A DNA stretch of 48,253 nt from a virus. The position numbers and the translations under genes are program-made. Shown here one piece after another: positions 18,901 through 44,944 of this stretch; positions within the stretch are counted from its first letter, which is position 1; each line of letters begins with the position of its first letter. The notes beneath the pieces were generated by a model. That model saw nothing but the letters and a program-made list of their open reading frames with translations. It was not told where the DNA came from and made no database searches. The stretch is from IMG/VR virus record IMGVR_UViG_3300043449_001549, positions 1-48,253 of that record. The stretch is one strand, 5' to 3'.

Positions 18901-20538
18901 CCAAGTCAGAGCTGGTGGTCAAACCTGTTCACAACCGGAACCTACGGGTGGACGCTGGGGTTTAACGTCTCTTCCGCAATCGTGGACTTGTCCTCACTCG
19001 TGCTCGTCACCGGCCCGTACCTGACGAGAACCTACGGGTTTGCAAAGACTCACCGGGTGATGATGGCCGCCGCAAAAGACATACTGGGAATGGGCACGTC
19101 GGCAGATGTGGAGACGTTGGTAACTCAGGGTCTGGAGGGCGCCGCGCTACAAGAGGTGCTGCAGACACTGGGCACAAAGGATCGGGACATGGTGCGCAGA
19201 AAAACGCTGCCTTCCGTGCTCAACATTGACTTTAACGACCCGGCGCAGCAGAAGAAGTACGGCTATCTTAAGCCGTTAGTAGATAAGGTGCGCGAGGCCG
19301 GTCACTCTGAGCGGTACTCTGAGCTGGCTGAATCGGCGGAGTTTGGCGAAAGCAACGCACTGTCTAAGTGGTCAGCACGAATGGGGTTCATGATGAACGC
19401 CAGTGAGCGCTTCAAGCGAGAGGTTGGATTAAAGACCGCGTACGACTTGGCACTCGCCGAGTTTGGTAAAAATCCAACGCAAGCGCAGAGAGAAGAAGCT
19501 GCGCAAAAGGCCATGGACATGAGCTTGCTGCTCAACGGGGGGTCAACGGCGGTAACAGGCGCGCGGTTCCAACAGCAAGATATTGCGCGTGTAGCGTTTA
19601 TGTACCGACGGTTTGCGGCGCTGCAGATGTACCTGCAAACAAAGACAGCCTATGACGCCACCATGAACGATGACCCCGACGTTAAGAAAGCGGCCCGTGC
19701 GTTCGCCGGGTACACCATGTTAACTTCCGCGGCTATGGTCGGAGTTAAAGGTATGCCAATGATGGGCGCCGTCGCCGGGTTGTGGGCAATGTACGGGGCG
19801 CTGTTCGGGGAAGAAGACGAAGACAACTCACTGGATAACTTCCTGCGTACGCACTTGGACCCAATACTGGTCGAGGGTATACCGAACATACTCACCAACG
19901 CCAACGTCGCTGGGCGAATGGAGATGACCAATCTCCTGATCCGAGACTCCAACCTGCCGAACGACGCCACGTTGGCTGACATTGTTGCCGCTCACTTTGG
20001 CGGACCTGCATACGGTTCAGTTAGTAGGGCGTATCGCGGCGCTGGGTTGATTGCAGAAGGGGAAATCCAGCGCGGGGTAGAAAGTATGTTGCCAGCGTCG
20101 TTCTCTAACGTATTCAAGTCTGCGAGATTCTTAACAGAAGGTGCTATCGAGACGATGCGGGGCGACGCCGTTACGGAGATCAGCCCATTCGGCGCGCTGT
20201 CACAAGCGCTTGGTTTTGCTCCGGCCGATTACGCTAGAACCATGGACTTTAATGTCGGGGACTCTAACGCTGAGCGCAGAATAAAAACCAAACGAACTGG
20301 GCTGTATGAAGCGGTCTACGTTGCATACCGCGTTGGCGATACCGGCGGCGTTGCGCAGGCGATAGAGAAGATAATTGAGTTTAACGCGCGCTACCCAGAG
20401 TTCGGTATAACTTCCGAGGGCTTGCGACAGTCCATTAAAGGCCGGGACAACAACACGCAGAAAATGATTAGGGGCAGGTTGCCGGACGAGAGAATGCGAG
20501 GCAATACCCTAGAGCGTGCGGAGGATTGGGGCTTCTAA
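12925..20538 (+). CDS. Giant polyvalent internal protein with ART-like and zincin domains (2537 aa)
   Basis: This is the longest gene here. The N-terminal YTITAADGKKYVVDAPEG start is typical of phage large polyvalent proteins. Residues of about 60-285 are Gly/Ala-rich and hydrophobic (possible membrane or channel part); 285-540 are acidic, helical and Gln/Ala-rich. At about 1068 a FYKWFGDSKVVDDQGRPLVL segment followed by YRG and FASPSPWVANTYA matches ART-PolyVal ADP-ribosyltransferase-like domains. At 1343-1348 AHELAH gives an HExxH zincin site (H1344, E1345, H1348), with D1406-E1407 downstream as a possible further ligand. The C-terminal 900 residues match large polyvalent C-terminal domains (HFGGPAYGSVSRAYRG, then GFAPADYARTMD). 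I infer that it is injected with the DNA and modifies host proteins or the cell wall. Confidence 0.8.
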   Translation: MAEYTITAADGKKYVVDAPEGLPPDLVRDDLNRQLRRQELRNRPAVAPAPIERTLMGQLGEGLRGIPRGAIGLLETAGVGASAMLPDEEEAFLREIISGAAQSAASPFQRKAGYEDSMAGTFGEALGSTVPFILTGGLPGVAARVASGVALGGSAGAGTARTRAEQAGATTEERAKATALGVLPGVAEMVVPGMIVGRLRKAVGPQLATNITSRLGRVAGAAGGEGLQEAASEIAQNMIAQGIYDPEQGVFTNTGESFGLGAGVGGLIAALVELGIRDRSAGGAPPPAVDPVDQAELAAQQQQAGDLFPEELEAATSDEQVVGAAMARQQAAEEEALAAEQDALEAAEMQGQEQPDMIDIDETRQIQDLFDDEELARMQQEEDAQLAAQEAARAETERARTVEEIATLDARSEAARAAESEEKRRQILLPIIESGRIADPTNLARAFSAELRRQGFANTVPTESELATIERAVGVQQAVTASETEQAANAAALQARQDAEQRAGAAPLERLIPERRAAAPVAPAVVSPQDQDRAEKARLNRERLDRTGRGLEGQLEIPVIPRAKGAAAQEPAQQGAPQQQDMFTPAQETDEAQLDLFAPRKAGAPAAPDQGTAPQQLAFDLTAALDAAGVPPQAPVRRRVNGMTLAQAKQELTNFAAAPGVAPEVSAAVTALVEQAAPVEAEVTTPTAPVEDAEAPVSQVPSYYMDSWKEATGLNEADIARYWKLSDDQRGWPERLMVKAQEVIGGGVISPTIEHIGDLTNRMGPKHDPGFSYAETKAKAEKYLKSLRSGYGFRREFEENLRSNAKFKNMAYEDHVAEVDAALKAYADAHAKLKTYNPIQTLARDAAVALGNKQFEKAAGLLEDMLSRMQTREQFFQEMKPGTEAAAPATTPAAVKPAKPAKPVVAKAEPVEEDQFDETDPFEETKAERAARRKEEKSQEGIREKIDNINRAIDADIERVTPIDISDAIEAVAESDPLFTDRPTKGAEKQWLKGLKKTDPERAVAVLNAIRSEKDIPPIELPDIVPTRKTSANQDSPSGTIEVDGNQRPTTNSKGQRIADTEEKIRAFYKWFGDSKVVDDQGRPLVLYRGINTPAEGALNAEAREGYAVFASPSPWVANTYANPGATSSDQVQGSLVPVYVKADALIEFPVTVSTYDGRRRFDMFEFDRRAKYLSPGQVLIVRKIVDVGPRARKELDPEYLYSYENDVYSWGKGTSVKSAIGNKGTFDPASPKINQAQDEASYSTDLSPYITDFDSAVAAIVKYASNPAQKEIAQKLAARLMQLKAAGFEFSLEITPEGYALRGARGLSAIDFSGLGEATTVKITLNHPSNGKQSGTGWVVVAHELAHAATQAQIKYAPRGTAAAKLNRLFDDVVAHFNQRVKEGNLTEFEKSIYNRGNNALQNSDELLAWGLTSEPMQRWLDSIKSKNGSFLSRLFDVVSSALGFSSNDTALSELMSVADGLLTETIDTYTEVANKQGQSFGKQENATGYPSWALSLALGKPIVWAEKDAALIQAQSIMGKKIYLVATPKGASRVDVGSYTGNLLPPARLKEVQAVAAGMQKTSANVDNTIQAAERALTDQSPAANNRFLNVQGAQLKSTSKPMKSKPVRDAVAKVMGTSAGSAAGNAARVVLTWGLPLPALNDYVQSYIRTKGPAYALFADVVKRYTETAVKFEGAMRQFTDGITAQITRMGDWKVANADKYAAMTDLYFGGSHKRVDLTKPESEYVGNPEKLTAYRKLKKQYDAIGPAGQAIYRQMRVIHNQQFKQISQQVFNRVYDATQDKAMATRIQNEFVKQMREKGPLEGYAPMLRPSGKHMLKYVGKDGEPAFEIFTNPNDQAARRQQLLEEGISDKDINPFIGGDLRAFDGVVPSSFLGQLVTTLKESKVEDGAAKTALIESVMALGVAMSPSNSVLERLASRKEVAGYIRDPFWAFQEGTIGLGRKLINMEYGAQLNKEVANMEATRKNIGNDATVASIVEDITKRAKYSANPSQSWWSNLFTTGTYGWTLGFNVSSAIVDLSSLVLVTGPYLTRTYGFAKTHRVMMAAAKDILGMGTSADVETLVTQGLEGAALQEVLQTLGTKDRDMVRRKTLPSVLNIDFNDPAQQKKYGYLKPLVDKVREAGHSERYSELAESAEFGESNALSKWSARMGFMMNASERFKREVGLKTAYDLALAEFGKNPTQAQREEAAQKAMDMSLLLNGGSTAVTGARFQQQDIARVAFMYRRFAALQMYLQTKTAYDATMNDDPDVKKAARAFAGYTMLTSAAMVGVKGMPMMGAVAGLWAMYGALFGEEDEDNSLDNFLRTHLDPILVEGIPNILTNANVAGRMEMTNLLIRDSNLPNDATLADIVAAHFGGPAYGSVSRAYRGAGLIAEGEIQRGVESMLPASFSNVFKSARFLTEGAIETMRGDAVTEISPFGALSQALGFAPADYARTMDFNVGDSNAERRIKTKRTGLYEAVYVAYRVGDTGGVAQAIEKIIEFNARYPEFGITSEGLRQSIKGRDNNTQKMIRGRLPDERMRGNTLERAEDWGF

Positions 20539-24833: not shown

Positions 24834-25058
24834 TTACAAATCCAGCTCGAGTTGCTTACGCCCTTCGGCATTATCGGCACTCAAATGGTCGCGCACCTTA
24901 TCATAGTCAAACCGGTACGTGGTCCGGGTACCGCCGGCGACGGCGATGTACGAACTCTTTGGTATCTTCCCCTGCTCCATCCAAGTTCTGACGGTGAGGC
25001 TGGACACCTGCAAGCGGTCAGCCAGCTCACCTATTTTGATAAGGTTATCGCCACTCAT
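24834..25058 (-). CDS. Small HTH DNA-binding protein (74 aa)
   Basis: Residues 6-37 (IKIGELADRLQVSSLTVRTWMEQGKIP) form a MerR/excisionase-type winged helix start: IGELA, then a recognition helix VRTW and EQGKIP. The remainder has RTTYRFDYDKVRDHL, like excisionase or MerR-like mini-proteins. It may regulate phage promoters or help replication. It overlaps the upstream gene's stop by one base (TAATG), so translation is coupled. It is one of very few clear DNA-binding regulators in the window. Confidence 0.75.
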   Translation of the reverse strand: MSGDNLIKIGELADRLQVSSLTVRTWMEQGKIPKSSYIAVAGGTRTTYRFDYDKVRDHLSADNAEGRKQLELDL

Positions 25059-35132: not shown

Positions 35133-35356
35133 GGTTGTTGCTCCTATTGGTTGTTTAATGTGGTCTGCCAGATAAACCGCTGACAGCACCGGTGCGCAAT
35201 CGAAGCACGTGTCCTCGATAACATCAGAAGTTGTTCCCGACGGGGCAACCAATGCGTCGTCTCTACGTGGTGGGGGAGCATTCTAAAACCGTCCACTCAC
35301 TCCTTGCGCTGCCGGTGTTTTACCCCACCTCCGGCTGGGGGCGACATGTCTGTTTA
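35133..35356. other. 224-bp intergenic stretch
   Basis: No convincing gene is seen here on either strand. It carries one SD-like leader at its left end and a degenerate copy of the TTTACTAG inverted repeat at its right end (35353-35372). It may hold the promoter of the 34.9-20.6 kb leftward operon, but no clear -35/-10 pair is visible. Confidence 0.5.
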
Positions 35357-35372
35357 CTAGGATTCTTGTATT
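35353..35372. promoter_or_regulatory. Inverted-repeat element, copy 1 (degenerate)
   Basis: TTTACTAGGATTCTTGTATT matches the consensus TTTACTAGAATTCTAGTAAA at 16 of 20 positions; the right arm is eroded. It spans the stop codon of the 78-aa gene (35357) on the minus strand. Confidence 0.45.
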
Positions 35373-35593
35373 TCCGCTTCGCCGAGATGCAGCGCGCCAA
35401 ACTTGGCCACTTCCCGGCCCAACTCAAGCTGAGTTCTAGCGACCTTAACTTCTGCATATAAACTTTCGTTCACTTGCGCCGCAATTTTGGTAACTTCTTT
35501 TGCTTTGTGCACATCAAATGTTCCGTTGGCTACGTTGTTAATCGCGGAGCACAAGAACGCTCTCAGCTCTCCAGTGTTTGTGATTTTTGACAT
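35357..35593 (-). CDS. Conserved small phage protein (78 aa)
   Basis: MSKITNTGELRAFLCSAINNVANGTFDVHKAKEVTKIAAQVNESLYAEVKVARTQLELG matches a family I know from many phages (MSK-TNT-ELR-FL start, KAK-I---A-Q---S---E): helical, no known function. AT-rich. ATG 35593 overlaps the upstream gene by 31 bases. Confidence 0.72.
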   Translation of the reverse strand: MSKITNTGELRAFLCSAINNVANGTFDVHKAKEVTKIAAQVNESLYAEVKVARTQLELGREVAKFGALHLGEAEIQES

Positions 35594-35964
35594 TTCAAAA
35601 CCTCTTTATAAAGTTTGTTAGTTAAGTATCTAATTTCCAGCGCTTCTTTTTTTGCTTTAGCAATCGGCTTTACTTTGTTCCAACACCCCATGCACAGAAC
35701 TGCTTTGCGTGCATTCTCAGACTCTGGCTTGTCGTTCAGGTTTGTGTCCCAGCCATAAACACCAGTGCGCCAATGAACTTTTTTACGTGTCCCTAAAACT
35801 TCGCACAGTTCACAATTTCTCAGGGGGGTGTACCAAACACAATCAAACCGCTTACCAAACTTTCCGTTCTTCAAAACCCTTCTAACGTAAGTCAACTCCG
35901 CGTACGGGCTTATATAAACGCGGGTTTTTCCTTCATGTTCATAGAATCCACGCCACATACACAC
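35563..35964 (-). CDS. AT-rich protein with two CxxC pairs (133 aa)
   Basis: C51-x2-C54 (NCELCEVLG) and C91-x2-C94 (LCMGCWNK) suggest one zinc ribbon split by about 36 residues; the layout is vaguely HNH- or recombination-endonuclease-like, but no HNH residues are certain. GC is about 42 percent. GAGGTG precedes ATG 35964, and an intact inverted-repeat element ends only 8 bases upstream. Probably a transferred accessory gene. Confidence 0.65.
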   Translation of the reverse strand: MCMWRGFYEHEGKTRVYISPYAELTYVRRVLKNGKFGKRFDCVWYTPLRNCELCEVLGTRKKVHWRTGVYGWDTNLNDKPESENARKAVLCMGCWNKVKPIAKAKKEALEIRYLTNKLYKEVLKCQKSQTLES

Positions 35965-35971
35965 CTCTTAA

Positions 35972-35992
35972 TTTACTAAGAATCTTAGTAAA
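35972..35992. promoter_or_regulatory. Inverted-repeat element, copy 2
   Basis: The arms TTTACTAAG and CTTAGTAAA are separated by AAT. It lies between the VRR-NUC stop and the start of the 133-aa gene, directly 5' of the GAGGTG site. The same variant occurs at 38866. Confidence 0.75.
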
Positions 35993-36000
35993 TCGGTCAG

Positions 36001-36294
36001 CTACCCCGACGCCTTGAGTACCTGCGTGAGCAGGTCCACGTTCTCTTCGTTGACTACGAGGGCAAGCCCGCCGGCTGCGGTAATCGCTGCTAAATTCTTG
36101 TCCTGCAGTGCCGTGGTCTTACCCTTTCCTGCTTTACACTCGATGCCGATGAACCGCCCGTCAAGGCAGCACACGATGTCCGGCACGCCGCTCGATCCAA
36201 ATCCGCCCGTCACCGGGTAGAAGTAGTACGCGCCCATCGCCTTGAGCTGCGCAACGGCGCGTTGTTTCACTTTCTTTTCCGGCGTCATTGCCAT
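36001..36294 (-). CDS. VRR-NUC domain nuclease (97 aa)
   Basis: A stand-alone VRR-NUC module: AVAQLKAMGAYYFYPVTGG, GVPDIVCCLDGRFIGIECKAG with the PD-(D/E)xK catalytic set D39, E52, K54, then a final helix-strand ALVVNEENVDLL. Phage members cut structured DNA such as Holliday junctions. ATG 36294 or 36288 may be used. Its stop is 9 bases before inverted-repeat copy 2. Confidence 0.88.
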   Translation of the reverse strand: MAMTPEKKVKQRAVAQLKAMGAYYFYPVTGGFGSSGVPDIVCCLDGRFIGIECKAGKGKTTALQDKNLAAITAAGGLALVVNEENVDLLTQVLKASG

Positions 36295-36315
36295 GTCGGC
36301 CTCTGATGACAGTAG

Positions 36316-36564
36316 TCAGTCGGGGTACACCCAGAACACGTGAGTGCCCATGCGCCTGCCGATACCGTCTATGTCGTGAGTGGGGGGTGGAGGTTGCATT
36401 ATTTGTAGCTTTCTTAACTTATTTTGTATCCATTGTGGCATGTTGTCAACTGTTCTGTACCACCCGTCCAACCCGAACTGCGCGGGGTCGAGCTCGAACG
36501 CAGTGACTTCTATCTGCCACTCCCCCTCGGGTCGGAACGCAACTCTGAGTACATCATTTCTCAC
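36316..36564 (-). CDS. Hypothetical phage protein (82 aa)
   Basis: GTG 36564 is set by GAGGAGG six bases upstream. The C-terminal THDIDGIGRRMGTHVFWVYPD end matches a phage family (DI-GIGRR---VFWV) of unknown function. There is a proline run (QPPPPTHD) before this motif. It sits between the VWA gene and the VRR-NUC gene. Confidence 0.66.
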   Translation of the reverse strand: MRNDVLRVAFRPEGEWQIEVTAFELDPAQFGLDGWYRTVDNMPQWIQNKLRKLQIMQPPPPTHDIDGIGRRMGTHVFWVYPD

Positions 36565-36573
36565 GGGACCTCC

Positions 36574-37737
36574 TCATACGTACACTACGCGGCCGACTGG
36601 CGGCACTCGCTTTGAGCCGATCACACACCACAGCACTGGCACGTCCCACTGCCCCCATGACCACACCCACCCATCGGTCAGCATCACCACAGCCTGCGGC
36701 TTGATGTTCTTCTCCCGCAGATAGTCAGCGACACACGCGGCATCTGTACCCCCTCCCCCGGCGGGCTTGGTTGACGTGGCGAGGGTCGCCATAGTGCCCA
36801 TGTCGTATAACTCCTCACGCTGCACCTTCTCATCCCAGTAGATCAGACGCAGCGTCTGGGGCTTGACCTGCTCGCAGATACCTGAGACCTCGGAGAGAAA
36901 CTCACGCAGGGCCACACGATCAATACTGCCGGAGGTATCCACACCCACCACAAGTTCTTCCACCTGCTGACTCACACCGCTGGGCATATACATGCCATCC
37001 CCGATATACCGGCGGTTGGGTCGTGCCCACGTGGCGTAGTCGTTGCCGGCACAGGTTGTACTGATGAACTCACGCAGCTCGGCCCGCCAGTCCACCTTGG
37101 GCGCAAGCAGCTGGTCCAAGCTCAGGGTACTGCCACCCCCGGCTTTCTTGGCGACCATCTCCCCCTGACGCAGCGCGGAGTCAATCTGCTCGGCCAACTC
37201 CTGCACCTCGTCATCCGTCATGTCCTGCGCAGACTCCCAGTCGTGGTCATCCATGCCCTCACCCTTGCCGCTACCGTTGCCCCCTTCGTCGGGCAGCAGA
37301 GCAAACACCTGCTGCACACTCATGCCGGTGTACTTGACGTCCAGCAGGCACAGGGCAGGGGCGGGCCAGTCCATGGACGCCTTGACGCCGTTCTTTATCA
37401 GCTCCTGCACCCACAGGTTGACAACGTAATCGGCCGCTGCGTTGGCCTTGCGCGGGTTGATCTTCCACAGGTGATCCCATGTGGTCAGGTGCCGGTACAT
37501 CTTGTGCCCCATCTCGTGCAGGATACAGCCGCGCAGGGCGCTGTCTGAACAGGCTTTGACGAACTTGCGGCCGTACTTCTCGTTGACCCCGTTGGTGCGC
37601 GCCGTGGGTAGTTTCTCCTCAATGGTGCGCTTGCCGATCATCATCACGGCACACAGGGGCAGCAGGTACGGCTCCCCCATCAGGGCATATATGGCCTTCT
37701 CCAGCCGTTGCTCCTCGCTTACGCTGATGTTGAACAT
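36574..37737 (-). CDS. VWA-like protein with N-terminal zincin motif (DUF2201-like, 387 aa)
   Basis: The N-terminal half has LHEMGHKMYRH (H74-E75-x2-H78), the metallopeptidase-like motif of the DUF2201 N-terminal domain. An acidic Gly-rich linker (150-205) leads to a C-terminal VWA-type domain with a MIDAS-like D267-T-S-G-S271 and later MLTDGW. It overlaps the MoxR-type gene by TAATG, so the two products are made together and probably form an AAA+/VWA chaperone pair. All motifs look intact. Confidence 0.82.
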   Translation of the reverse strand: MFNISVSEEQRLEKAIYALMGEPYLLPLCAVMMIGKRTIEEKLPTARTNGVNEKYGRKFVKACSDSALRGCILHEMGHKMYRHLTTWDHLWKINPRKANAAADYVVNLWVQELIKNGVKASMDWPAPALCLLDVKYTGMSVQQVFALLPDEGGNGSGKGEGMDDHDWESAQDMTDDEVQELAEQIDSALRQGEMVAKKAGGGSTLSLDQLLAPKVDWRAELREFISTTCAGNDYATWARPNRRYIGDGMYMPSGVSQQVEELVVGVDTSGSIDRVALREFLSEVSGICEQVKPQTLRLIYWDEKVQREELYDMGTMATLATSTKPAGGGGTDAACVADYLREKNIKPQAVVMLTDGWVWSWGQWDVPVLWCVIGSKRVPPVGRVVYV

Positions 37738-38822
37738 TACTGGTCACCCCCGAACAGGTAGCTGAACTTGTGCACCCACTGCGTGAACCCCGGGGAGTTC
37801 ATCACCACCGCACGGCGCGTCTCGTTGTACTTGGAGGACCGCACGCCGTTGACGAACAGGGACTGCGCCTCGTTGGGCAGGCGCTGCAGGTAGGTGTGCC
37901 ACGCGGCGACCCACTCCTTCTCGACACACCCGAGTACGCGGAACACCACCATGCACAGTGCGGCAGTGTTGTCCGGCACCAGTGCGGTGTCGGGGGTCTT
38001 CTTGATCGACTCCAGTGACGGCAGCTTGTCTGCCATCTCGATGAACACCGCGAGGTTCTGCGCAGCCTCACTCCCCAGCGTGCCGATCAGTGCAGCGGTC
38101 AGCGTCTGACGGTCCAACAGGTGGCGCTTCTTGAGCCAGTGGGACGCCTTCTCCAGTGAACGCGGCGTGACGAACGCAGCGCGGGAGGAGCGCGGGTGGT
38201 AGATGTACAGGTTCTCGTCGGGGTCTTTGACCTCCTCAAAAGACTGCATGCAGTGGGGGTTGTCTTTGGTCCACCCGAGGATCGTGTGGTCCACGCCGTT
38301 GTTGATGCCCCACTCGATGAACTCCAGCGCCGTGGGCTTGCGTGTCGTCACCACAGTGATGCGGTTGCGGGCATGGGGCGGCAGCACGTCACCGACTCCC
38401 TCGATGCCGAGGTTGGTCGTGGCAAAGACGATGGAGCCTTCGGGCAGTGGGTATGAGCCGATCTGAAACTCCTGCATCACGCGCAGCAGGGCGTTCTTTG
38501 TGCTGGGGTCGGCCTTGCCGTACTCGTCGATCATCAGGATCAGGGGCTTGCCCAAGTGCACGCCGAACTCCTCGTTGGGCGCGAAGCGCACGAAGTCGTT
38601 GCCGTCGAGGTCCTTGAGCTTGGGCAGCATCGTGTCGCCGAGGCTCTTGGTCGTGCAGTCGAAGTAGCACGGGATGTGCCCGGGCAGTGCCAGTGCCAGT
38701 GACTTGAGCAAGGATGTCTTGCCGCAGCCCATGTGGCCTTGGATGAGCACAGTAGTGCGGTCGCCCTGTGAGGCGAGAATGAGGTTGTGCGCTTGCTCGA
38801 GGTTGAGGTTGTACATTTGCAT
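37737..38822 (-). CDS. MoxR-type AAA+ ATPase (361 aa)
   Basis: Walker A QGHMGCGKTS (G29-T36), Walker B LILMIDEYGK (D99, E100), sensor 1 VFATTN (N137) and ARNRITVV arginine region identify an AAA+ ATPase of the MoxR/dynein-like AAA_5 group. MoxR proteins work with VWA partners to remodel or insert cofactors into target proteins. The partner gene follows directly. The leader has two hairpins (38866-38886 and 38840-38860) and the repeated AGGAGCAACACC site before ATG 38822. Confidence 0.88.
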   Translation of the reverse strand: MQMYNLNLEQAHNLILASQGDRTTVLIQGHMGCGKTSLLKSLALALPGHIPCYFDCTTKSLGDTMLPKLKDLDGNDFVRFAPNEEFGVHLGKPLILMIDEYGKADPSTKNALLRVMQEFQIGSYPLPEGSIVFATTNLGIEGVGDVLPPHARNRITVVTTRKPTALEFIEWGINNGVDHTILGWTKDNPHCMQSFEEVKDPDENLYIYHPRSSRAAFVTPRSLEKASHWLKKRHLLDRQTLTAALIGTLGSEAAQNLAVFIEMADKLPSLESIKKTPDTALVPDNTAALCMVVFRVLGCVEKEWVAAWHTYLQRLPNEAQSLFVNGVRSSKYNETRRAVVMNSPGFTQWVHKFSYLFGGDQ

Positions 38823-38839
38823 GGTGTTGCTCCTGTGTG

Positions 38840-38860
38840 TGCGCCACGGGATGTGGCGCA
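38840..38860 (-). promoter_or_regulatory. Strong hairpin in MoxR leader
   Basis: TGCGCCAC and GTGGCGCA pair perfectly around a five-base loop, between the inverted-repeat element and the binding site of the MoxR-type gene. It has no T-run and is therefore more likely a translation-control or mRNA-protecting stem than a terminator. Confidence 0.6.
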
Positions 38861-38865
38861 GTTGG

Positions 38866-38886
38866 TTTACTAAGAATCTTAGTAAA
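38866..38886. promoter_or_regulatory. Inverted-repeat element, copy 3
   Basis: Arms TTTACTAAG and CTTAGTAAA with spacer AAT, identical to copy 2. It lies between the 315-aa gene stop and the MoxR-type start, 44 bases from the ATG. Confidence 0.75.
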
Positions 38887-38908
38887 AGGTTTGGTTGGTT
38901 GGTTGGGG

Positions 38909-39856
38909 TCAGAACCCAAGGCTCGGTAGTGTGGCAATCACGTCGTCCACGGCTTTCTTGGTGGCGCGGCGCAGTCTGTGGTCTTCACGCAGGTCGTCCG
39001 CGTCGATGCCGTGCAGGGCGTCACGCAGTGCCTGTGCATTGTCCTTCATGGTCTGGTTACCGGTGAGGTTGCAGGCGTCCATCAGGTCCACCATCTCCAG
39101 CACGTTGCTCACCAGCGTGTCGCGGAATACTTTCTTGGTGTCCTTGTCGCCGTAGTCCAGCCGCTCGGACATACGCTCGGCCACTGTCCGCACCCTGCCG
39201 TTGACGTCAGCCATCGCCGCTTCCAGCTGGTTGCGGTAGTACGACTGGTAGTGCGCAGCCAACTCCTCCTTGGCGCTCGCCTCTATGTCGATGCGCCAGT
39301 CCTTGGCCTCAGAGATGGGGATGTACGTGAACCCGAACCCGAACTTGGTCTGCAGCGCAGCCACCGAGGGGTACTCATTGGGGTTGAACAGATCGCCCAG
39401 CTTGACTTGTGCTTGCGTGATCTCCCAGTTGTAGGAACTGAGGAACACATCGACCAGCGCAAAGTACTCGGTCTTGAGTGCGATCATCGCCTCGTTGTAC
39501 TTGAAGTACCGGGTGGTGGGCAGCAGCCGCATCCCGGTGTCAGACCACGGCATGGTCATGGCGTAGTGGGCGTTGCGTGCATTGGCAGCAAACTTGAGCA
39601 CCGCACTCAATTCGGCGCAGTCTCCCAGCAGCTTCTTGTTGACGTTGGCCACACCTGTGGAGGCACGGTTGTCGAGGGTTACCTTCTGGCTCGCACTCTT
39701 GTCGAGCTTGCGCCCTGCCCAGTTGCGGATGGACAACTCCACCATCATGGCACTGCCTGAGATAGAGGGCACTGCGATCTTCGGGGCCTGTGCAAAGTTC
39801 AGCGCAGGGATAGTCGGGTACTCTTGGTCGTCGTTCGGGGTTGTCAGGTCGTACAT
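38909..39856 (-). CDS. Conserved phage protein associated with MoxR/VWA genes (315 aa)
   Basis: Features SAMMVELSIRNWAGRKLDKSASQKV, NVNKKLLGDCAELSAVLKFAANARNAHYAMTMPWSDTGMRLLPT, LGDLFNPNEYPSV and a long charged helical C-terminal half. I recognise this family as a regular neighbour of MoxR/VWA pairs in phages, and it may be the client or adaptor of that pair. The leader AACCAAGGAGCAACACC precedes ATG 39856. No catalytic motif is visible. Confidence 0.75.
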   Translation of the reverse strand: MYDLTTPNDDQEYPTIPALNFAQAPKIAVPSISGSAMMVELSIRNWAGRKLDKSASQKVTLDNRASTGVANVNKKLLGDCAELSAVLKFAANARNAHYAMTMPWSDTGMRLLPTTRYFKYNEAMIALKTEYFALVDVFLSSYNWEITQAQVKLGDLFNPNEYPSVAALQTKFGFGFTYIPISEAKDWRIDIEASAKEELAAHYQSYYRNQLEAAMADVNGRVRTVAERMSERLDYGDKDTKKVFRDTLVSNVLEMVDLMDACNLTGNQTMKDNAQALRDALHGIDADDLREDHRLRRATKKAVDDVIATLPSLGF

Positions 39857-39886
39857 GGTGTTGCTCCTTGGTTTGGGTTGTTTTGC

Positions 39887-40069
39887 TTACTCGCACTCTG
39901 GTCTATCTACTTCATTGCCGTTGACTAATACCTTGAGTTCACCGGCCTGCATGGCTTCTTTTATTTTCAGAACCGCGCCGCAGGTGAAGGTGATTACAAC
40001 GCCGCCATCGTAAGCGTCAATGTAATTGCAGGACTGCACTGTCCGGCCTTCGAGGTGTAATGGGGTCAT
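39887..40069 (-). CDS. Hypothetical small protein (60 aa)
   Basis: MTPLHLEGRTVQSCNYIDAYDGGVVITFTCGAVLKIKEAMQAGELKVLVNG, a short beta-rich protein with no named family. It is the first gene downstream of the promoter at 40148-40177; inverted-repeat copy 4 and the leader AACAACCAAGGAGCAACACC lie before its ATG. Confidence 0.68.
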   Translation of the reverse strand: MTPLHLEGRTVQSCNYIDAYDGGVVITFTCGAVLKIKEAMQAGELKVLVNGNEVDRPECE

Positions 40070-40087
40070 GGTGTTGCTCCTTGGTTG

Positions 40088-40107
40088 TTTACTAGAATCC
40101 TAGTAAA
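40088..40107. promoter_or_regulatory. Inverted-repeat element, copy 4
   Basis: TTTACTAGAATCCTAGTAAA, with one central mismatch. It sits in the 5' leader of the 60-aa gene, about 35 bases downstream of the predicted transcription start and 18 bases before the ATG. Confidence 0.75.
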
Positions 40108-40134
40108 TTGTTTGGTTTCAATTACTTACTGCTC

Positions 40135-40150
40135 AATGTACATGTACATT
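40135..40150. promoter_or_regulatory. TGTAC-N2-GTACA operator over the -10 of P40177
   Basis: AATGTACATGTACATT is a perfect 16-base palindrome overlapping the -10 element and the presumed start site. A dimeric repressor bound here would block RNA polymerase. Confidence 0.65.
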
Positions 40151-40177
40151 ATAGCATACTTCATCATGCTGTGTCAA
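40148..40177 (-). promoter_or_regulatory. Sigma70-type promoter for 60-aa gene unit
   Basis: TTGACA (40177-40172) and TATAAT (40153-40148) are both perfect consensus, with 18-base spacing. It faces left towards the 60-aa, 315-aa, MoxR and VWA genes. The -35 overlaps the stop of the upstream gene. Confidence 0.8.
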
Positions 40178-40503
40178 GTTACACGGATACCCGCCACTCG
40201 CAGCATCTCGTCAAGCTCGGCTGTCGGCAGTGGGGCGCAGTCTTTTCCATACGGGTGACACTGACCGGACTGCTTGCTAGTGCTATTGCTGAACCTCTCG
40301 CAGTTCTTGAACCATGTGTCGGTGCGGGTGTCGCACACAAACATCGGCCAGTACCCGTAGCTATACACCACGTACAGGTGCCTTACGTGTCGCCCGCTGA
40401 TGGCGTAGCCATTCTCGGACTGCTCGTTCTTTGCGCCGTTGAACTCTTGGCACTTGAGCACGTAAGGGCGGGCGTTGGGGTTGGTGACTGTTGGTGTTCT
40501 CAT
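40174..40503 (-). CDS. Conserved phage protein, DUF8033-like (109 aa)
   Basis: ARPYVLKCQEFNGAKNEQSENGYA, then HLYVVYSYGYWPMFVCDTRTDTWFKNCERFSNSTSKQSGQCHP, a pattern I know from phage proteins with a YVVYSYG---WPM---- core (DUF8033-type). The function is unknown. The leader contains CACAGGAGCCACAAGC before ATG 40503, which overlaps the upstream stop. Confidence 0.72.
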   Translation of the reverse strand: MRTPTVTNPNARPYVLKCQEFNGAKNEQSENGYAISGRHVRHLYVVYSYGYWPMFVCDTRTDTWFKNCERFSNSTSKQSGQCHPYGKDCAPLPTAELDEMLRVAGIRVT

Positions 40504-40961
40504 GCTTGTGGCTCCTGTGTTGTGGTTGGCTGGTCAAATTGCAGGGGCTTGCCCCCACGCGGGAACTCGGCGTGCACAATCAAATCAAAGTTGTCGTAAA
40601 GAATTTGCATCCTGTCCTGCAGCGCGTCTCTGTCCATTTCGGCGGAGTCATTCGGCTCCAAGATGTCTAGCACAGTGTCGCTTGTTTCTTCCCCTACACG
40701 AACAAATGCTGTGCCCGCGCCGTTCTCTCTGGCGAGCTCCTGCAGCATGTGGTGTCCCTGCACATCAGGGAAACTGTCGTACCACTTCACGTCCTCAAAC
40801 CCGGCGAATATGAACCCGTCTCCCCCTGTACTGCGGCTGTACTCCAGCAGTGCTTCTCGCACAGTGTCCGGCTGGAAGGCCACCACCTTGAGTGCAAACT
40901 CTTTTAGTTTTTCGTCGTTTTCAAACACAATGCCCAGCCCCACGTCGCTGCGGTACCCCAT
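40500..40961 (-). CDS. Hypothetical phage protein (153 aa)
   Basis: ATG 40961 is set by AAGGAGAACTGAC. Begins MGYRSDVGLGIVFENDEKLKEFALKV, then FAGFEDVKWYDSFPDVQGHHML, ENGAGTAFVRVGEETSDTV and DLIVHAEFPRGGK. The MGYRSDV start and the WY-x-FPDV segment occur in conserved phage and bacterial proteins of unknown function. The frame upstream overlaps the previous gene and is a shadow. Confidence 0.7.
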   Translation of the reverse strand: MGYRSDVGLGIVFENDEKLKEFALKVVAFQPDTVREALLEYSRSTGGDGFIFAGFEDVKWYDSFPDVQGHHMLQELARENGAGTAFVRVGEETSDTVLDILEPNDSAEMDRDALQDRMQILYDNFDLIVHAEFPRGGKPLQFDQPTTTQEPQA

Positions 40962-40962
40962 G

Positions 40963-41157
40963 TCAGTTCTCCTTCGGGCAGCTGCCCGCTGTGTTGTTGT
41001 AGTCCGGCCAGCCGTACTCGCCGTTGGTTTCGGTCCATATCTGCACCATCTCGCAGTGCAGGTCTTGCTCGGACGTGTCCGGTGCGGCGTCGCCAAACGC
41101 TATGGCCAGCCCGAGGGCCAGCAGCGCGGCTGAGATTAGTAGTGCGTTGGTCTTCAT
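40963..41157 (-). CDS. Small exported or lipid-anchored-like protein (64 aa)
   Basis: Signal-peptide-like start MKTNALLISAALLALGLAIAFG, then CEMVQIWTETNGEYGWPDYNNTAGSCPKEN. The C-EMV-IW...GWPDY---C pattern recurs in short secreted phage proteins. No lipobox Cys follows the hydrophobic stretch directly. It probably resides in the periplasm. Starts with an ATGA overlap; a longer open frame upstream is out of context. Confidence 0.7.
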   Translation of the reverse strand: MKTNALLISAALLALGLAIAFGDAAPDTSEQDLHCEMVQIWTETNGEYGWPDYNNTAGSCPKEN

Positions 41158-41930
41158 GCGTCTTCCCCTTCGTGCTCCTGCGTTGTTATCCACTCGCCGA
41201 AGTCGGCCATGGCCCGCTCGATCTGTTCCTTGCTGAAGTGCGGGATGGTGTCGCACAGTCCTGACTCCACTGGGTTGTAGCCGAAGAACCCCCAGCATGA
41301 GTCCACCTGCTCCCACTCGCCGGTGGCGTTGTCCAGCCGCTCCACGGTGTATCCGTACACGCTGCCCGTGAGGTAGTCGTCGTATGTCTTCACCTCGCTG
41401 CGCAGGTACTCCTCGATCTTCTTGCGGCGGGCCTTGGTCAGTATTTTCCAACCGTACTCGGCCTTGATCTTGTCAATCGTCACGTAGATAAACCCCACCT
41501 GCCCTGAGTCCCACGGGCAAGAGAATGCACTGGTACGCATCGTGATCCCGCTGTGGTCGTACAGGTAGAGGGGCAGCTCGATGATGTGCTGCGCCAGCAC
41601 ACGATCTACACGTGCTTCGGCGTAGTTGTCCACTTCCCGCTGCGCTTGCAGCCACTCACGGGAGCCATACGTCAAGCCTATCGCGTCACGCAGTCTCTCG
41701 CACTCACGCTCCAGCGTCACCGATAGCGCGGGCCGGTACTTCTCGGCCATGGCAAGGCGGTACTCGCCGGGGGTGTGGTCTGGCTGTTCGTCGCCCAGTG
41801 TGTGACGGCGGCTCCAGCACACCATCTTGCCGAAGTTGCCCCACTCACGGGGTGAAGACGGATCGTTGTCGTACTCAATCTTGAGGCGGTACACGGGGTT
41901 GATCCCCGGCAGTTGCAGTTGGTCAGTCAT
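41154..41930 (-). CDS. Conserved phage protein of unknown function (258 aa)
   Basis: Contains YDNDPSSPREWGNFGKMVCWSRR, YTLGDEQ-type segment, ELPLYLYDHSGITMRTSAFSCPWDSGQVGFIYV and VYGYTVERLDN...DSCWGFFGY. This is a family I recognise from many phage genomes, but no function is known. The strongly conserved LYLYDHSG and CPWDSGQVGFI motifs suggest an enzyme-like core. Leader GCAACCAAGGAGAACGAC precedes ATG 41930. Confidence 0.78.
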   Translation of the reverse strand: MTDQLQLPGINPVYRLKIEYDNDPSSPREWGNFGKMVCWSRRHTLGDEQPDHTPGEYRLAMAEKYRPALSVTLERECERLRDAIGLTYGSREWLQAQREVDNYAEARVDRVLAQHIIELPLYLYDHSGITMRTSAFSCPWDSGQVGFIYVTIDKIKAEYGWKILTKARRKKIEEYLRSEVKTYDDYLTGSVYGYTVERLDNATGEWEQVDSCWGFFGYNPVESGLCDTIPHFSKEQIERAMADFGEWITTQEHEGEDA

Positions 41931-42099
41931 TGTCGTTCTCCTTGGTTGCTGTCGCGGTGTTTACCCAGTGTTGACGCCATGCCCGGTCGAGCCGAGCGAG
42001 GCGCTTCTCTTCTCTTGCAAGTTCGTTCTTCAGTGCAGCCACTTTGCCCCACTGCTCATCGAACTCGTCCCACAGTTGTGCCGTTTTATCGTCGTTCAT
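41923..42099 (-). CDS. Small charged helical protein (58 aa)
   Basis: ATG 42099 to TGA 41923 encodes MNDDKTAQLWDEFDEQWGKV, then ALKNELAREEKRLARLDRAWRQHW, probably one long amphipathic helix or coiled coil. It overlaps the upstream stop by ATGA and the downstream start by eight bases, and its last codons contain the downstream gene's AAGGAGAAC site. This interlocking supports it as real. Confidence 0.65.
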   Translation of the reverse strand: MNDDKTAQLWDEFDEQWGKVAALKNELAREEKRLARLDRAWRQHWVNTATATKENDND

Positions 42100-42443
42100 A
42101 GCAGTTCCTCCGGGATGACTACATCATCGCCAAGTTTTGATTGGACGAAGCAGCGGGCTGCTGAGATCAGGGGCCAGTGCGAGAGTTGAATACTCCGGGC
42201 TTCGTCGTCGTAGTTGTACTGGATGCACGCCCCCCACCAACCGTCTTGACGTTGGTTCAGGCTTATATGTTCCCGCTCGATGATCGGCCCCATGAGGGAC
42301 CAGTCAGTTGATGGCTTCCATGTCACTCCCGGAATATCAGGGATCAGAAAGACTTTGCGCTTACTACCCCACCGCACAGGGACTCCTTCGCACTTTGCCA
42401 CCGCCCAGTCGAGCGCGGCACCTGTCAGTTCAGATGTTTTCAT
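42096..42443 (-). CDS. DUF2591-family phage protein (115 aa)
   Basis: MKTSELTGAALDWAVAKCEG is the hallmark start of DUF2591, followed by YSPSTDW-like PSTDWSLMGPIIEREHISL and a final ISAARCFVQSKLGDDVVIPEEL. It is widespread in phages; the function is unknown. The leader ATCCAAGGAGAACGAG lies directly after inverted-repeat copy 5. Confidence 0.88.
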   Translation of the reverse strand: MKTSELTGAALDWAVAKCEGVPVRWGSKRKVFLIPDIPGVTWKPSTDWSLMGPIIEREHISLNQRQDGWWGACIQYNYDDEARSIQLSHWPLISAARCFVQSKLGDDVVIPEELL

Positions 42444-42458
42444 CTCGTTCTCCTTGGA

Positions 42459-42478
42459 TTTACTAAGTTCTTAGTAAG
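42459..42478. promoter_or_regulatory. Inverted-repeat element, copy 5
   Basis: TTTACTAAG and CTTAGTAAG are separated by TT; the last base breaks symmetry. It lies 15 bases before the DUF2591 start, abutting the ribosome binding site. Confidence 0.7.
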
Positions 42479-42501
42479 TGGGTTGGTTGGGTTGGTCTGA
42501 G

Positions 42502-43035
42502 TTAATCTTGCACCAGCACGCGGTAGCGATCACCTGCCAGCGCACCGCATATCTCGCAGTTGTCGTGCTGGAAACCATAGGTGATTGAAGTCAGCACCGC
42601 GTGTCCCGGCAGCCTGTCCACGCTGTCTGCAACGTGCGCGGCTTCGGCATCATCCAGCGCGGACAGGTCGGCATTGGCAATGTACATGCAGCAGTCTTGG
42701 CAGGCTGCGTACTCCGTCCAGCCATCCGGCACAGGTGGGTTCTCCCCGAAGAAGTTTATGTACTCCTGCTCGTCCATCAGGTGTGGGTGCACCAGCCACA
42801 GGTCGCCGTCTTGGTACAGGTACCCACCCTCTGCGGTCTTGGCCTTGCCGAGGACGGCGTCCCACGCCTCCCAGTACCACTCGCCATCCGGCGCGGTGCA
42901 CGAGAGGATGGCAATGTCCGCATCGTTCTCGGCAATGCCGAACAACGACAGGTCGAAATCCTGCGCGAATCGCTGGGGTATGTAGACGCCGCTGGCGTCG
43001 GTGATAAGCAACTGTAAACCTTGTGTCTTTTTCAT
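42502..43035 (-). CDS. Hypothetical phage protein with Cys pairs (177 aa)
   Basis: MKKTQGLQLLITDASGVYIPQRFAQDFD, WYWEAWDAVLGKA, YLYQDGDLWLVHP, then CQDCCMYIANAD and DNCEICGALAGD. The DA-GVYIP-FA start and YQDGDLW motif are known from conserved phage proteins. The two C-x2-C pairs probably form a zinc site. The function is unknown. SD AGGAG lies before ATG 43035. Confidence 0.72.
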   Translation of the reverse strand: MKKTQGLQLLITDASGVYIPQRFAQDFDLSLFGIAENDADIAILSCTAPDGEWYWEAWDAVLGKAKTAEGGYLYQDGDLWLVHPHLMDEQEYINFFGENPPVPDGWTEYAACQDCCMYIANADLSALDDAEAAHVADSVDRLPGHAVLTSITYGFQHDNCEICGALAGDRYRVLVQD

Positions 43036-43067
43036 TTGTCATGCTCCTGTTGTTGGGTGTGGTTGGA

Positions 43068-43088
43068 TTTACTAAGAATCTTATTAAA
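43068..43088. promoter_or_regulatory. Inverted-repeat element, copy 6
   Basis: TTTACTAAG and CTTATTAAA around AAT, with one mismatch in the right arm. It overlaps the stop of the 93-aa gene and precedes the 177-aa gene leader. Confidence 0.7.
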
Positions 43089-43365
43089 CTTGTTCAGGGT
43101 CGCCGTACTCGGACGGTATGTCCATCGCGCAACCGCAACACTGCAATGGTGCGCCTTCCCAATGTATCTCGGCGGCGTACGCCTGCCAGCCCGATCTGTC
43201 ATTGTCGCGGGTAGCACGCAGGATACTGTGGTAGTTCTCTTTGACGCAGTGGGCGCACATACTATCGCCGTCTGCCATTATCATTACCTTTGCGTAGCCA
43301 CCCGGCCATGCGTAGGGGGCCCGGATGATGTCCTTGATTGCGTTGATGCGGGTTCTTGTGTTCAT
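43084..43365 (-). CDS. Conserved phage protein with two CxxC pairs (93 aa)
   Basis: ATG 43365 is set by AACCAAGGAGCATGACACC. IKDIIRAPYAWPGGYAKVMIMADG, then C37-x2-C40 and C76-x2-C79 followed by PSEYGDPE. The APYAWPGGY and terminal I-S-YG- features are a phage family I know, of unknown function, probably zinc-binding. First gene downstream of promoter P43519. Confidence 0.76.
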   Translation of the reverse strand: MNTRTRINAIKDIIRAPYAWPGGYAKVMIMADGDSMCAHCVKENYHSILRATRDNDRSGWQAYAAEIHWEGAPLQCCGCAMDIPSEYGDPEQV

Positions 43366-43423
43366 GGTGTCATGCTCCTTGGTTGTAGGCACATCTGAGG
43401 TGCCGGTTTACTTACTTTACTTA

Positions 43424-43443
43424 TTTACTAGAATTCTAGTAAA
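43424..43443. promoter_or_regulatory. Inverted-repeat element, copy 7 (perfect)
   Basis: TTTACTAGAATTCTAGTAAA is a perfect 20-base palindrome, about 41 bases downstream of the predicted start site of P43519 and upstream of the 93-aa gene. Confidence 0.8.
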
Positions 43444-43479
43444 CGGGCTTGGGTCGGGGCGCTCATTGCTTCTCTCATT

Positions 43480-43491
43480 TGTACGTGTACA
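43480..43491. promoter_or_regulatory. TGTAC-N2-GTACA operator at P43519 start site
   Basis: TGTACGTGTACA has symmetric TGTAC and GTACA arms and touches the -10 element, as at P40177. A repressor site is the simplest reading. Confidence 0.6.
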
Positions 43492-43519
43492 GTATAACAC
43501 GTTACAGTGTGTTTGTCAA
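43491..43519 (-). promoter_or_regulatory. Sigma70-type promoter P43519
   Basis: TTGACA (43519-43514) and TATACT (43496-43491) are separated by exactly 17 bases. It faces left into the accessory early genes and is the strongest promoter seen in the window. Confidence 0.82.
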
Positions 43520-43557
43520 GTCGAAAAGCCGCAGCCCAGCAAACACGCGGGAGGTAT

Positions 43558-44059
43558 GGAAGTATATAGGTATGTGACTTCGTTTTCTTAAAAAACGGCA
43601 TTGAGTAGTTATCCTGTGTTGAAGAAATTCGGGCGGAAAAGTAGGTACTGTGCAGTTGAGGTATTTCCTGAAACCCAGCAATGGCGCGGGAAGTAGCTAT
43701 AGTATGGAAGTATGTAAAATAAGTTTATTAGGGTTCAAAAATCACTTTCTGCACTCATTTTAGCATTTTTTCCGGCTCTCGACTGCAAATTGCCAAAAAC
43801 AGAGTCCCGTTGGCCAAAAGTACTTTTTCCTTACATACTTCCCTACTTCCCTACCTCCCGCGTATTCCGTGGCCTCCAGCGATATGCAAGAAATACCTCT
43901 ACTATACATTACATACTTGTGACAGTCTCACCGCAGTATAACAAAACAATGAAGTATTTACAGAAAACGAGGTCACATACTTCCTACAGTACATACCTCC
44001 TCTTTTTAAACTATAACAAGCAATGCTAGTTTTCTGAAAAAACGCGCTCACATACTTCC
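43558..44059. repeat. Iteron-like GGAAGTATGT repeats
   Basis: Exact cores (either strand) at 43706-43715, 43833-43842, 43975-43984 and 44050-44059; close variants at 43558-43567, 43911-43920 and 43991-44000. Three longer blocks share CGCGGGAGGTA or CGCGGGAAGTA followed by the core: 43546 onward, 43684 onward, and inverted near 43833-43865. Confidence 0.65.
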
Positions 44060-44072
44060 TACATTACCTACT

Positions 44073-44092
44073 TTTACTAGAATTCGAGTAAA
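44073..44092. promoter_or_regulatory. Inverted-repeat element, copy 8
   Basis: TTTACTAGAATTCGAGTAAA, one mismatch from a perfect palindrome, at the right end of the iteron-like region. Confidence 0.72.
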
Positions 44093-44150
44093 TCGCCGCT
44101 TATCTTATTTTTACTTAAACCTGATCGGGGGCGGCCGCTGCCCGCTGCTC

Positions 44151-44190
44151 ACTACAGGTATCAACTACTAACTTCAACTACAGGTATCAA
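44151..44190. repeat. Two copies of ACTACAGGTATCAA
   Basis: The 14-base unit occurs at 44151-44164 and 44177-44190, 26 bases apart, next to the terminator of the 196-aa gene. Confidence 0.7.
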
Positions 44191-44211
44191 AAAGCCCGGC
44201 GAACCGGGCTT
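44189..44211 (-). terminator. Intrinsic terminator of the 196-aa gene
   Basis: AAGCCCGG (44192-44199) and CCGGGCTT (44204-44211) pair around CGAA; on the minus strand the stem runs into TTTTTG. It lies about 30 bases past the 44240 stop. Confidence 0.85.
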
Positions 44212-44239
44212 GGTTGGTGCGCCGTCCGTGGCGCTGCAT

Positions 44240-44830
44240 TTACCAAGTCATTTCAGCTTCAGCTGCATTCAAGTGCTCAAGAATCGCTTCTCGATTTTCA
44301 CAGTCACTGCCCGCAACTTCAAGAATCAATGCTTTGAGCATTGCCCGAACATCACCCGCCATTGTCGGCGCGGTTTCCTTTTCCGCCTTTTCTTCCTTCG
44401 GCGCGTCCGCGTCCGCGTCCGCGTCCGCTTCTGCCTTCGCAAGATCAGGGTTCAGCGTGCGCCACGCCGTTTCGACCATGCCGCGAAAACCGGCAAGATA
44501 TGTGCTGACCTCAGATGTAAGTTTGTTGCGCTCGGTTTGCTTGCCCGCTTTGTTTGCCATTTTTGGGTCAGTTGCCCACAATTCAAACTCCGGCTTCGTA
44601 AGCAAACCGGACGCGATTAACCCCTGCAATCCAGCAAAGGTCCCCCCGCTGATAAGTCCGGACTTAACGCCGTCTTTCGTGAACATGTGGCCACGTCCGC
44701 CAGCAGCAGCAATTGCTTCGGCTGCCTTCTTTCTTGCGCTCTTTGCGCTTCGCTCTTTCGCGGCGCCTTCGCGTATCAGTGTGGCCATGTCGGAAGTAAT
44801 GATGAAAGTCTGAACAGTTGAAGTAGTCAT
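44240..44830 (-). CDS. Single-gene transcription unit beside putative origin (196 aa)
   Basis: I recognise no family. The N-terminal half is Ala/Lys/Gly-rich (AKERSAKSARKKAAEAIAAAGGRGHMF), with LISGGTFAGLQGLIASGLL and WATDPKMANKAGKQTERNKLTSEVSTYLAGFRGMVETAWRTL. A hinge of DADADADA (four GCGTCC units in the DNA) joins an acidic C-terminal helix. It has its own consensus-like promoter, an inverted-repeat element upstream and a strong terminator, so it is expressed independently. A regulator or replication initiator is a reasonable guess from context. Confidence 0.75.
   Translation of the reverse strand: MTTSTVQTFIITSDMATLIREGAAKERSAKSARKKAAEAIAAAGGRGHMFTKDGVKSGLISGGTFAGLQGLIASGLLTKPEFELWATDPKMANKAGKQTERNKLTSEVSTYLAGFRGMVETAWRTLNPDLAKAEADADADADAPKEEKAEKETAPTMAGDVRAMLKALILEVAGSDCENREAILEHLNAAEAEMTW
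44403..44428. repeat. GCGTCC tandem hexamer (four units)
   Basis: Four GCGTCC units encode the Asp-Ala repeat of the 196-aa protein on the minus strand. Copy number is likely to vary between relatives. Confidence 0.8.
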
Positions 44831-44873
44831 TCTGTATTGCTCCTGATTGTGTCGGGGCAGAAGTGCGCCGATC

Positions 44874-44908
44874 TATGTACATAATAGCACACAATCTCCT
44901 ATTGTCAA
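44874..44908 (-). promoter_or_regulatory. Sigma70-type promoter with TGTACA site for the 196-aa gene
   Basis: TTGACA (44908-44903) and TATTAT (44886-44881) have 16-base spacing. TATGTACATA (44874-44883) overlaps the -10, similar to half of the operators at the other two promoters. Confidence 0.7.
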
Positions 44909-44924
44909 GTCATAGCGCAAGCCA

Positions 44925-44944
44925 TTTACTAGAATTCTAGTAAA
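44925..44944. promoter_or_regulatory. Inverted-repeat element, copy 9 (perfect)
   Basis: TTTACTAGAATTCTAGTAAA, identical to copy 7. Here it lies upstream of the -35 rather than in the leader, between the divergent 196-aa gene and terminase genes. Confidence 0.8.

Follow-up and report, generated by a model that had tools for sequence, protein, structure and literature searches.

The window analyzed here, a stretch of 48,253 nucleotides (positions 1 to 48,253 of IMG/VR record IMGVR_UViG_3300043449_001549), derives from an uncultivated phage with podovirus-like packaging and replication genes. Its early region is driven leftwards by three strong sigma70 promoters and carries a family of palindromes, 20 or 21 bp long, with the half-sites TTTACTA or TTTACTC. 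We focus here on these palindromes, their counterparts in related phages, and the protein encoded by the first early gene, a candidate for recognizing them. The features of the region, listed in the direction of early transcription (palindromes and the non-coding region without strand), are as follows.

44925 to 44944: palindrome TTTACTAGAATTCTAGTAAA, 16 nt upstream of the -35 element of the first early promoter; the relatives L090, G008, G006 and G022 have a copy placed likewise.
44881 to 44908, minus strand: first early promoter, TTGACA-16-TATTAT (promoter scan).
44240 to 44830, minus strand: first early gene, 196 aa, candidate palindrome-recognizing protein; all-alpha model, variable motif near RNKLTSEVSTYLAGFRGM.
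44189 to 44209, minus strand: terminator-like hairpin GCCCGG-TTCG-CCGGGC followed by a T-run, after the first early gene; read from the sequence and absent from the list of the scan that gave the promoters.
44073 to 44092: palindrome TTTACTAGAATTCGAGTAAA, a chimera of two half-sites; it borders the origin-like non-coding region and lies past the terminator-like hairpin.
43500 to 44100: AT-rich, origin-like non-coding region with direct and inverted repeats; palindromes near both ends.
43491 to 43519, minus strand: second early promoter, TTGACA-17-TATACT (promoter scan).
43424 to 43443: palindrome TTTACTAGAATTCTAGTAAA, within the leader of the second strong promoter.
43068 to 43088: 21-bp palindrome TTTACTAAGAATCTTATTAAA, between two cistrons, 32 nt ahead of a start codon.
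42459 to 42478: palindrome TTTACTAAGTTCTTAGTAAG, intercistronic, start codon 15 nt downstream.
40148 to 40177, minus strand: third early promoter, TTGACA-18-TATAAT (promoter scan).
40088 to 40107: palindrome TTTACTAGAATCCTAGTAAA, within the leader of the third strong promoter, 18 nt ahead of a start codon.
38909 to 39856, minus strand: DUF3150-like protein of 315 aa (weak Pfam match); the gene is conserved, and in relatives its leader region contains a palindrome.
38866 to 38886: 21-bp palindrome TTTACTAAGAATCTTAGTAAA, before the MoxR-like ATPase gene; equivalent place in relatives.
37737 to 38822, minus strand: MoxR-like AAA+ ATPase, whose conserved gene follows a palindrome in those phages that were examined.
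35972 to 35992: 21-bp palindrome TTTACTAAGAATCTTAGTAAA, start codon 13 nt downstream.
35353 to 35373: degenerate ninth copy with one intact half-site, overlapping the stop codon of a 78-aa open reading frame (35357 to 35593).

Eight of the nine copies are good, and the coordinates that a first-pass annotation had assigned to them proved exact. The ninth, which it had counted equally, retains an intact TTTACTA half but has three mismatches in the right half; better copies occupy apparently the same place in relatives G001 to G003. All sites are confined to the leftward early region, and no copy of comparable quality occurs elsewhere in the 48 kb, as had been noted. Shuffle tests exclude a chance origin: the exact 20-mer with at most three mismatches occurs 4 times in the window versus 0 in 100 shuffles, and half-site pairs with at most one mismatch occur 8 times versus 0 in 20 Markov shuffles. 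Four sites occupy short gaps between cistrons, 13 to 43 nt ahead of a start codon, two lie in the leaders of the second and third promoters, and the copy at 44925 lies upstream of the first promoter. Symmetric, paired changes had also been reported for the inner arms. Such changes and the two lengths are real, but pairing does not always hold: the copy at 44073 joins a TTTACTC half to a TTTACTA half, and more such chimeras occur in G008, G009 and G022, so the varying unit is the half-site.

Syntenic copies were found in at least 10 close-relative records, some phages carrying TTTACTAG, some TTTACTCA, and some mixtures. The ATPase, the primase and the 315-aa protein served to retrieve more distant IMG/VR loci, whose palindromes were clustered de novo. 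A palindrome family of its own is present in 123 of the 165 related loci, the commonest being GTTAGTG-N3-CACTAAC; further half-site families are GTTAGGG, GTTAGGC, GTTAGTCC, GTTATAC, TTTACGG, CCTGACC and TGTATACA. The palindrome sequence thus varies between phages but is uniform inside each phage. In placement the relatives agree: sites precede the first early promoter, surround the origin-like non-coding region, and stand immediately in front of the Shine-Dalgarno sequences of early genes. In near-complete genomes (46 to 67 kb) the sites are concentrated in one early module. Of the 24 phages whose first promoter scored well, 19 have the first copy upstream of the -35 element at a distance of 15 to 46 nt (104 nt in one); the distance is 11 to 16 nt in L090, G006, G008, G022 and the window.

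A Shine-Dalgarno sequence and start codon follow 10 to 30 nt downstream of 192 of 629 near-perfect copies, versus 32 of 629 random positions. The proposal that the palindrome itself is selected and tied to gene starts therefore held up in relatives, and neither of the outcomes that the first-pass annotation had named as refuting it, random placement in related phages or lost covariation of the arms, was found. The same preference bears on the possibility that these are replication, segregation or DNA-organization sites, with the first protein marking the early or origin region in a ParB-parS-like or initiator-like manner and the gene-start placement merely reflecting free intergenic DNA. Copies near both ends of a repeat-rich, AT-rich non-coding region and the 8 to 11 dispersed copies would suit such a role, and concerted switching of the sites (see below) would fit incompatibility groups; we nevertheless consider it unlikely, given the strong preference for 10 to 30 nt upstream of starts over any intergenic place.

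The association between palindromes and a protein emerged from four pairs of otherwise near-identical phages in which all or nearly all sites are exchanged. In each, the ATPase and DUF3150 proteins are nearly identical while the early-region palindromes differ: GGTAGTCC in L062 and L063 versus GTTAGGG in L064 and L065 (ATPase 0.99 to 1.00 identical), GTTAGTG in L035 versus GGTAGTCC in L046, GTTAGTG in L095 versus TTTACGG in L112, and GTAGTCC in L125 versus GTTAGGC in L126. These are metagenomic contigs with genes called by a simple in-house caller; both states of the L062/L064-L065 case were each assembled in two separate records. Sites in L046 are mostly GGTAGTCC, with one GTTAGTG remaining and two hybrids (9959, 11078, 12501), and this set appears to have been caught in the middle of a type switch.

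Exchange of this kind also speaks to mobile or recombinogenic palindromes, self-spreading and homogenized by gene conversion with no protein recognizing them. Palindromes are prone to template-switch correction, and their uniformity within a genome would be expected of such elements. However, the sites keep conserved, syntenic positions at which one sequence is exchanged for another, and the first gene changes along with them, which makes this explanation very unlikely.

The first early gene differs in all four switch pairs, in three of them with an identity of 0.23 to 0.27 against 0.89 to 1.00 for typed neighbors. In L062/L064 and L035/L046 it is the sole diverged gene among those with a partner present; values below 0.2 in this gene-by-gene comparison denote a gene absent from the calls or cut off in the partner, not divergence. 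L095/L112 also differ in one small neighboring gene, and L125/L126, whose first genes are 0.77 identical, differ in several further small genes. All links drawn here between protein and palindrome are comparative. In total, 73 first genes were extracted, with some starts picked by an in-house scorer; the aligned genes form one family spanning the window clade and distant phages. Among pairs with ATPase identity above 0.85, mean first-gene identity is 0.715 when the half-site is the same (103 pairs) versus 0.335 when it differs (19 pairs), with no difference between the two sets in ATPase or DUF3150 identity. Permutation within groups of close relatives reached the observed association in 27 of 5000 trials for the first gene; the ATPase and DUF3150 controls were unremarkable (814 and 413 of 1000).

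Within the first-gene family, a short motif, [KR]RYWQQQIGxxxxD, varies with the half-site. GTTAGTG goes with QQQIGA(R/K)..DF, GTTAGGG with QQQIGSK.KDL, and GTTAGGC with QQQIGSRLNRV, and the motif is visibly changed between L125 (RRFVTTEMGSRLGK) and L126 (KRWIQQQIGSRLNR). For some first genes, such as those of the GGTAGTCC and TTTACGG types, divergence is too great for the motif to be assigned. AlphaFold2 gave confident all-helical models (pLDDT 87.6 for the window protein, 91.2 for that of L013), with the motif within a long helix. The family matches no Pfam, PHROG or PDB family, L5 gp71 not having been compared directly, and a fold search with the protein returned no clear match, an absence that is not evidence of a new fold. 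Searches for relatives matched motif stretches in bacterial genomes, with no confirmed relative there, and found none in plasmids or, by tblastn, in phage records.

The first-pass annotation had named two candidate binders. Its 196-aa protein, the first early gene product, fits the comparisons above; its other candidate, a 74-aa helix-turn-helix (HTH) protein, does not. This HTH_17/MerR-like protein (24834 to 25058, minus strand) ends in QLELDL, which resembles a beta-clamp binding motif, as do its counterparts in several relatives. It was matched in 14 of 14 relatives of one search (every near-complete relative searched). It is nevertheless ruled out as the specificity factor because the L093 and L094 versions are nearly identical although the palindromes are TTTACGG and GTTAGTG, respectively; in L190 and G011 the HTH_17 proteins are identical and the inner arms different. 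We thus regard the idea that the sites are read by another conserved regulator of this kind as extremely improbable. A second small HTH family, located before the DNA polymerase gene in relatives, was also discarded, as its hidden Markov model drifted over several domains and found no HTH counterpart in the window.

Whether the palindromes act as DNA dyads or as RNA hairpins had been left undecided. Hairpins in leaders, bound by a phage protein or alone, could regulate how each early gene is translated or its mRNA processed; the sites lie at gene starts mainly on the sense strand, often with a Shine-Dalgarno sequence within 10 nt, the loop length is variable, and the arginine-rich long helix predicted in the first protein could conceivably bind RNA. 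If pairing were selected, sense-strand mismatches should favor G-U over A-C. No such excess was observed, either in all copies (41 versus 35, positions 3 to 8) or in leader copies (25 versus 26, positions 3 to 9), and RNA hairpins were set aside as the principal interpretation. The first copy, moreover, usually lies upstream of the first promoter, and the spacer sequence is found in either orientation. The lack of a G-U excess and the copy upstream of the first promoter together favor DNA dyads; that copy, the one beyond the terminator-like hairpin, and the chimeras, which break the pairing, likewise favor DNA half-sites. Of the two options, the dimer site is therefore the one that stood, and RNA hairpins appear quite unlikely.

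Hairpins of another kind were considered in connection with a 2537-aa protein of the window (12925 to 20538, plus strand), which has DarB-like matches and a weak 132-aa match to N4-type virion RNA polymerase. The latter match prompted the idea of N4-like hairpin promoters for a virion RNA polymerase, which was dropped because sigma70 promoters precede two of the leader copies and the hairpin sequences differ between phages.

We conclude, with a probability of roughly 0.68, that a single regulator encoded by the phage, in the window the 196-aa product of the first early gene, uses the palindromes as its operators, in the form of DNA dyads. This protein would bind the palindrome as a dimer and thereby damp or gate early transcription, by autoregulation at the first promoter and, at sites within the operon, by acting much as a roadblock or stoperator would; repression of this type is suggested because the sites lie inside the transcription unit. 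Alternatively, the position of the first site, about 55 to 65 bp upstream of the transcription start, would allow an activator role at that promoter.

Several observations weigh against this assignment. Half-site spacing varies within a genome by 1 to 2 bp in 129 of 737 copies (about one in six). This would be unusual if the dimer were rigid, and a flexible one or another geometry must therefore be assumed. The sense-strand preference on the 5′ side of gene starts (308 copies versus 48 on the opposite strand) would suit an RNA role too. The first-gene protein, as judged from its sequence and predicted fold, has no recognized DNA-binding domain or clear fold match. The nearest phage by first gene shares the half-site in 44 of 60 cases, hardly more than the 42 of 60 for the nearest by ATPase, and the four pairs examined amount to very few independent switch events.

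As for why specificity would diversify, the regulator of a resident phage would, by analogy with heteroimmunity, silence any co-infecting relative that shares its sites, whereas a new type would escape. Neither a tyrosine integrase (PF00589) nor a serine recombinase (PF00239) was found in 17 records, which may be incomplete and were not searched for parABS; classical lysogenic immunity is thus not the obvious reason for the switching. We tentatively propose, at somewhat less than even odds, a compatibility-type system in phages lacking a detected integrase. In such a system an all-helical protein family with no known relatives would use a short variable motif in a helix to read the dyad code; whole genomes would change type through replacement of one gene and subsequent conversion of all 7 to 10 sites in turn, with exclusion between co-infecting relatives as the probable driving force.

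The searched literature holds no description of this palindrome element, in line with the initial impression that it matches no known phage regulon, and the searched papers include no known system in which a partner protein switches together with all its sites between genomes that are otherwise identical. The nearest parallel in logic is provided by the stoperators found in L5 and further Cluster A mycobacteriophages, many short sites of one regulator distributed through the transcription unit, whose consensus differs between related phages, tracks the regulator, and forms the basis of heteroimmunity (PMC6550527, PMC9283540). In L5 the sites are asymmetric 13-mers that mostly share an orientation and are bound by a monomeric repressor, and these phages are temperate, with an integrase or parABS (PMC6550527, PMC9283540). 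Here, too, multiple sites lie inside transcription units near gene starts, and the consensus varies between related phages together with the inferred regulator. The sites here are instead dyads of 17 to 21 bp, the candidate protein belongs to an all-helical family with no recognized domain, and the 17 records yielded no tyrosine integrase or serine recombinase.

Closest in site architecture are the 17-bp dyads of Corndog (Cluster O mycobacteriophages), TGTTCGG-N3-CCGAACA, which occur in many copies, often at gene starts and mostly away from promoters (PMC4351075). Their function is unknown, although a dimeric protein was suggested by the authors; Corndog has no integrase, and its dyads have one sequence cluster-wide, no identified partner, and about a third of their copies inside genes (PMC4351075). 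Arms of 7 bp with a 3-bp spacer in many copies are likewise found in most relatives here and in Planktothrix phage Pag-Yong1, whereas the window's own 20-21-mer has another spacing. With the first-gene protein as query, tblastn gave no match in the phage collection.

In gene-start placement and subcluster-specific inverted repeats, the closest system is the Cluster K ESAS. The SAS and ESAS elements are tied to translation starts of early/non-structural genes, the inverted-repeat consensus is subcluster-specific, and an RNA hairpin was unsupported according to the authors; the SAS, located at the start site, is a 13-mer lacking symmetry, GGGATAGGAGCCC, and the ESAS has 17-bp arms with spacers of 4 to 13 bp (PMC3203893). 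Gene-start association and group-specific inverted repeats are shared with the phages studied here, and no SAS-like shared 13-mer was seen in the leaders read. Lambdoid phages offer a further parallel in N and the nut boxB element, pairs of a phage-specific protein and an early-leader element that differ between relatives, boxB being an RNA hairpin with a conserved loop. The resemblance lies in these phage-specific pairs; in the present phages, however, the loops vary, RNA-pairing bias is lacking, and one copy is upstream of a promoter.

Among cultured phages, the cyanobacterial phage Pag-Yong1 (L298, OL906435.1, 15001 to 65000) contains about 29 CGGTTCA-N3-TGAACCG-like dyads in the stretch read, several of them before gene starts. 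One precedes the first leftward gene, UMO76074.1, which shows no convincing homology to the first-gene family. No palindrome families were found in the stretches read of the Pelagibacter phages HTVC027P and HTVC023P, 023Pt_psg01 and DSL-LC04. As a cultured phage with a similar palindrome family, Pag-Yong1 offers a laboratory test. If the operator interpretation is correct, the switch pairs would constitute a natural experiment in the joint specificity change of a regulator and its many operators, with near-identical genomes before, during (L046) and after the switch and a readable protein motif. Heteroimmunity-like logic would then reach phages lacking a detected integrase, testable pairs would become available for a new sequence-reading protein family, and a function would be suggested for the unexplained start-associated dyads of other phages.

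Other features of the region can be added. The DUF3150-like, MoxR ATPase and VWA/DUF2201 proteins (36574 to 39856, minus strand) form a module conserved in most fetched relatives. The non-coding region at 43500 to 44100 (about 600 bp) has a GC content of about 0.40, the repeats ACATACTTCC and GTTTTCTGAAAAAACG, and a local change in GC skew, and is a candidate replication origin; distant phages have a comparable non-coding region with AATGTTCTAATGTTCG repeats. Finally, a related palindrome, CTGACTGCACCTGCAGTAAG, stands before GGC-TAC-rich repeat genes encoding Gly/Tyr-rich proteins in G003, G004, G010 and G023 (for example, L184:1682-1701 and 2256-2275), and may represent a second dyad type or a duplicated leader; similar repeat genes also occur in L012.

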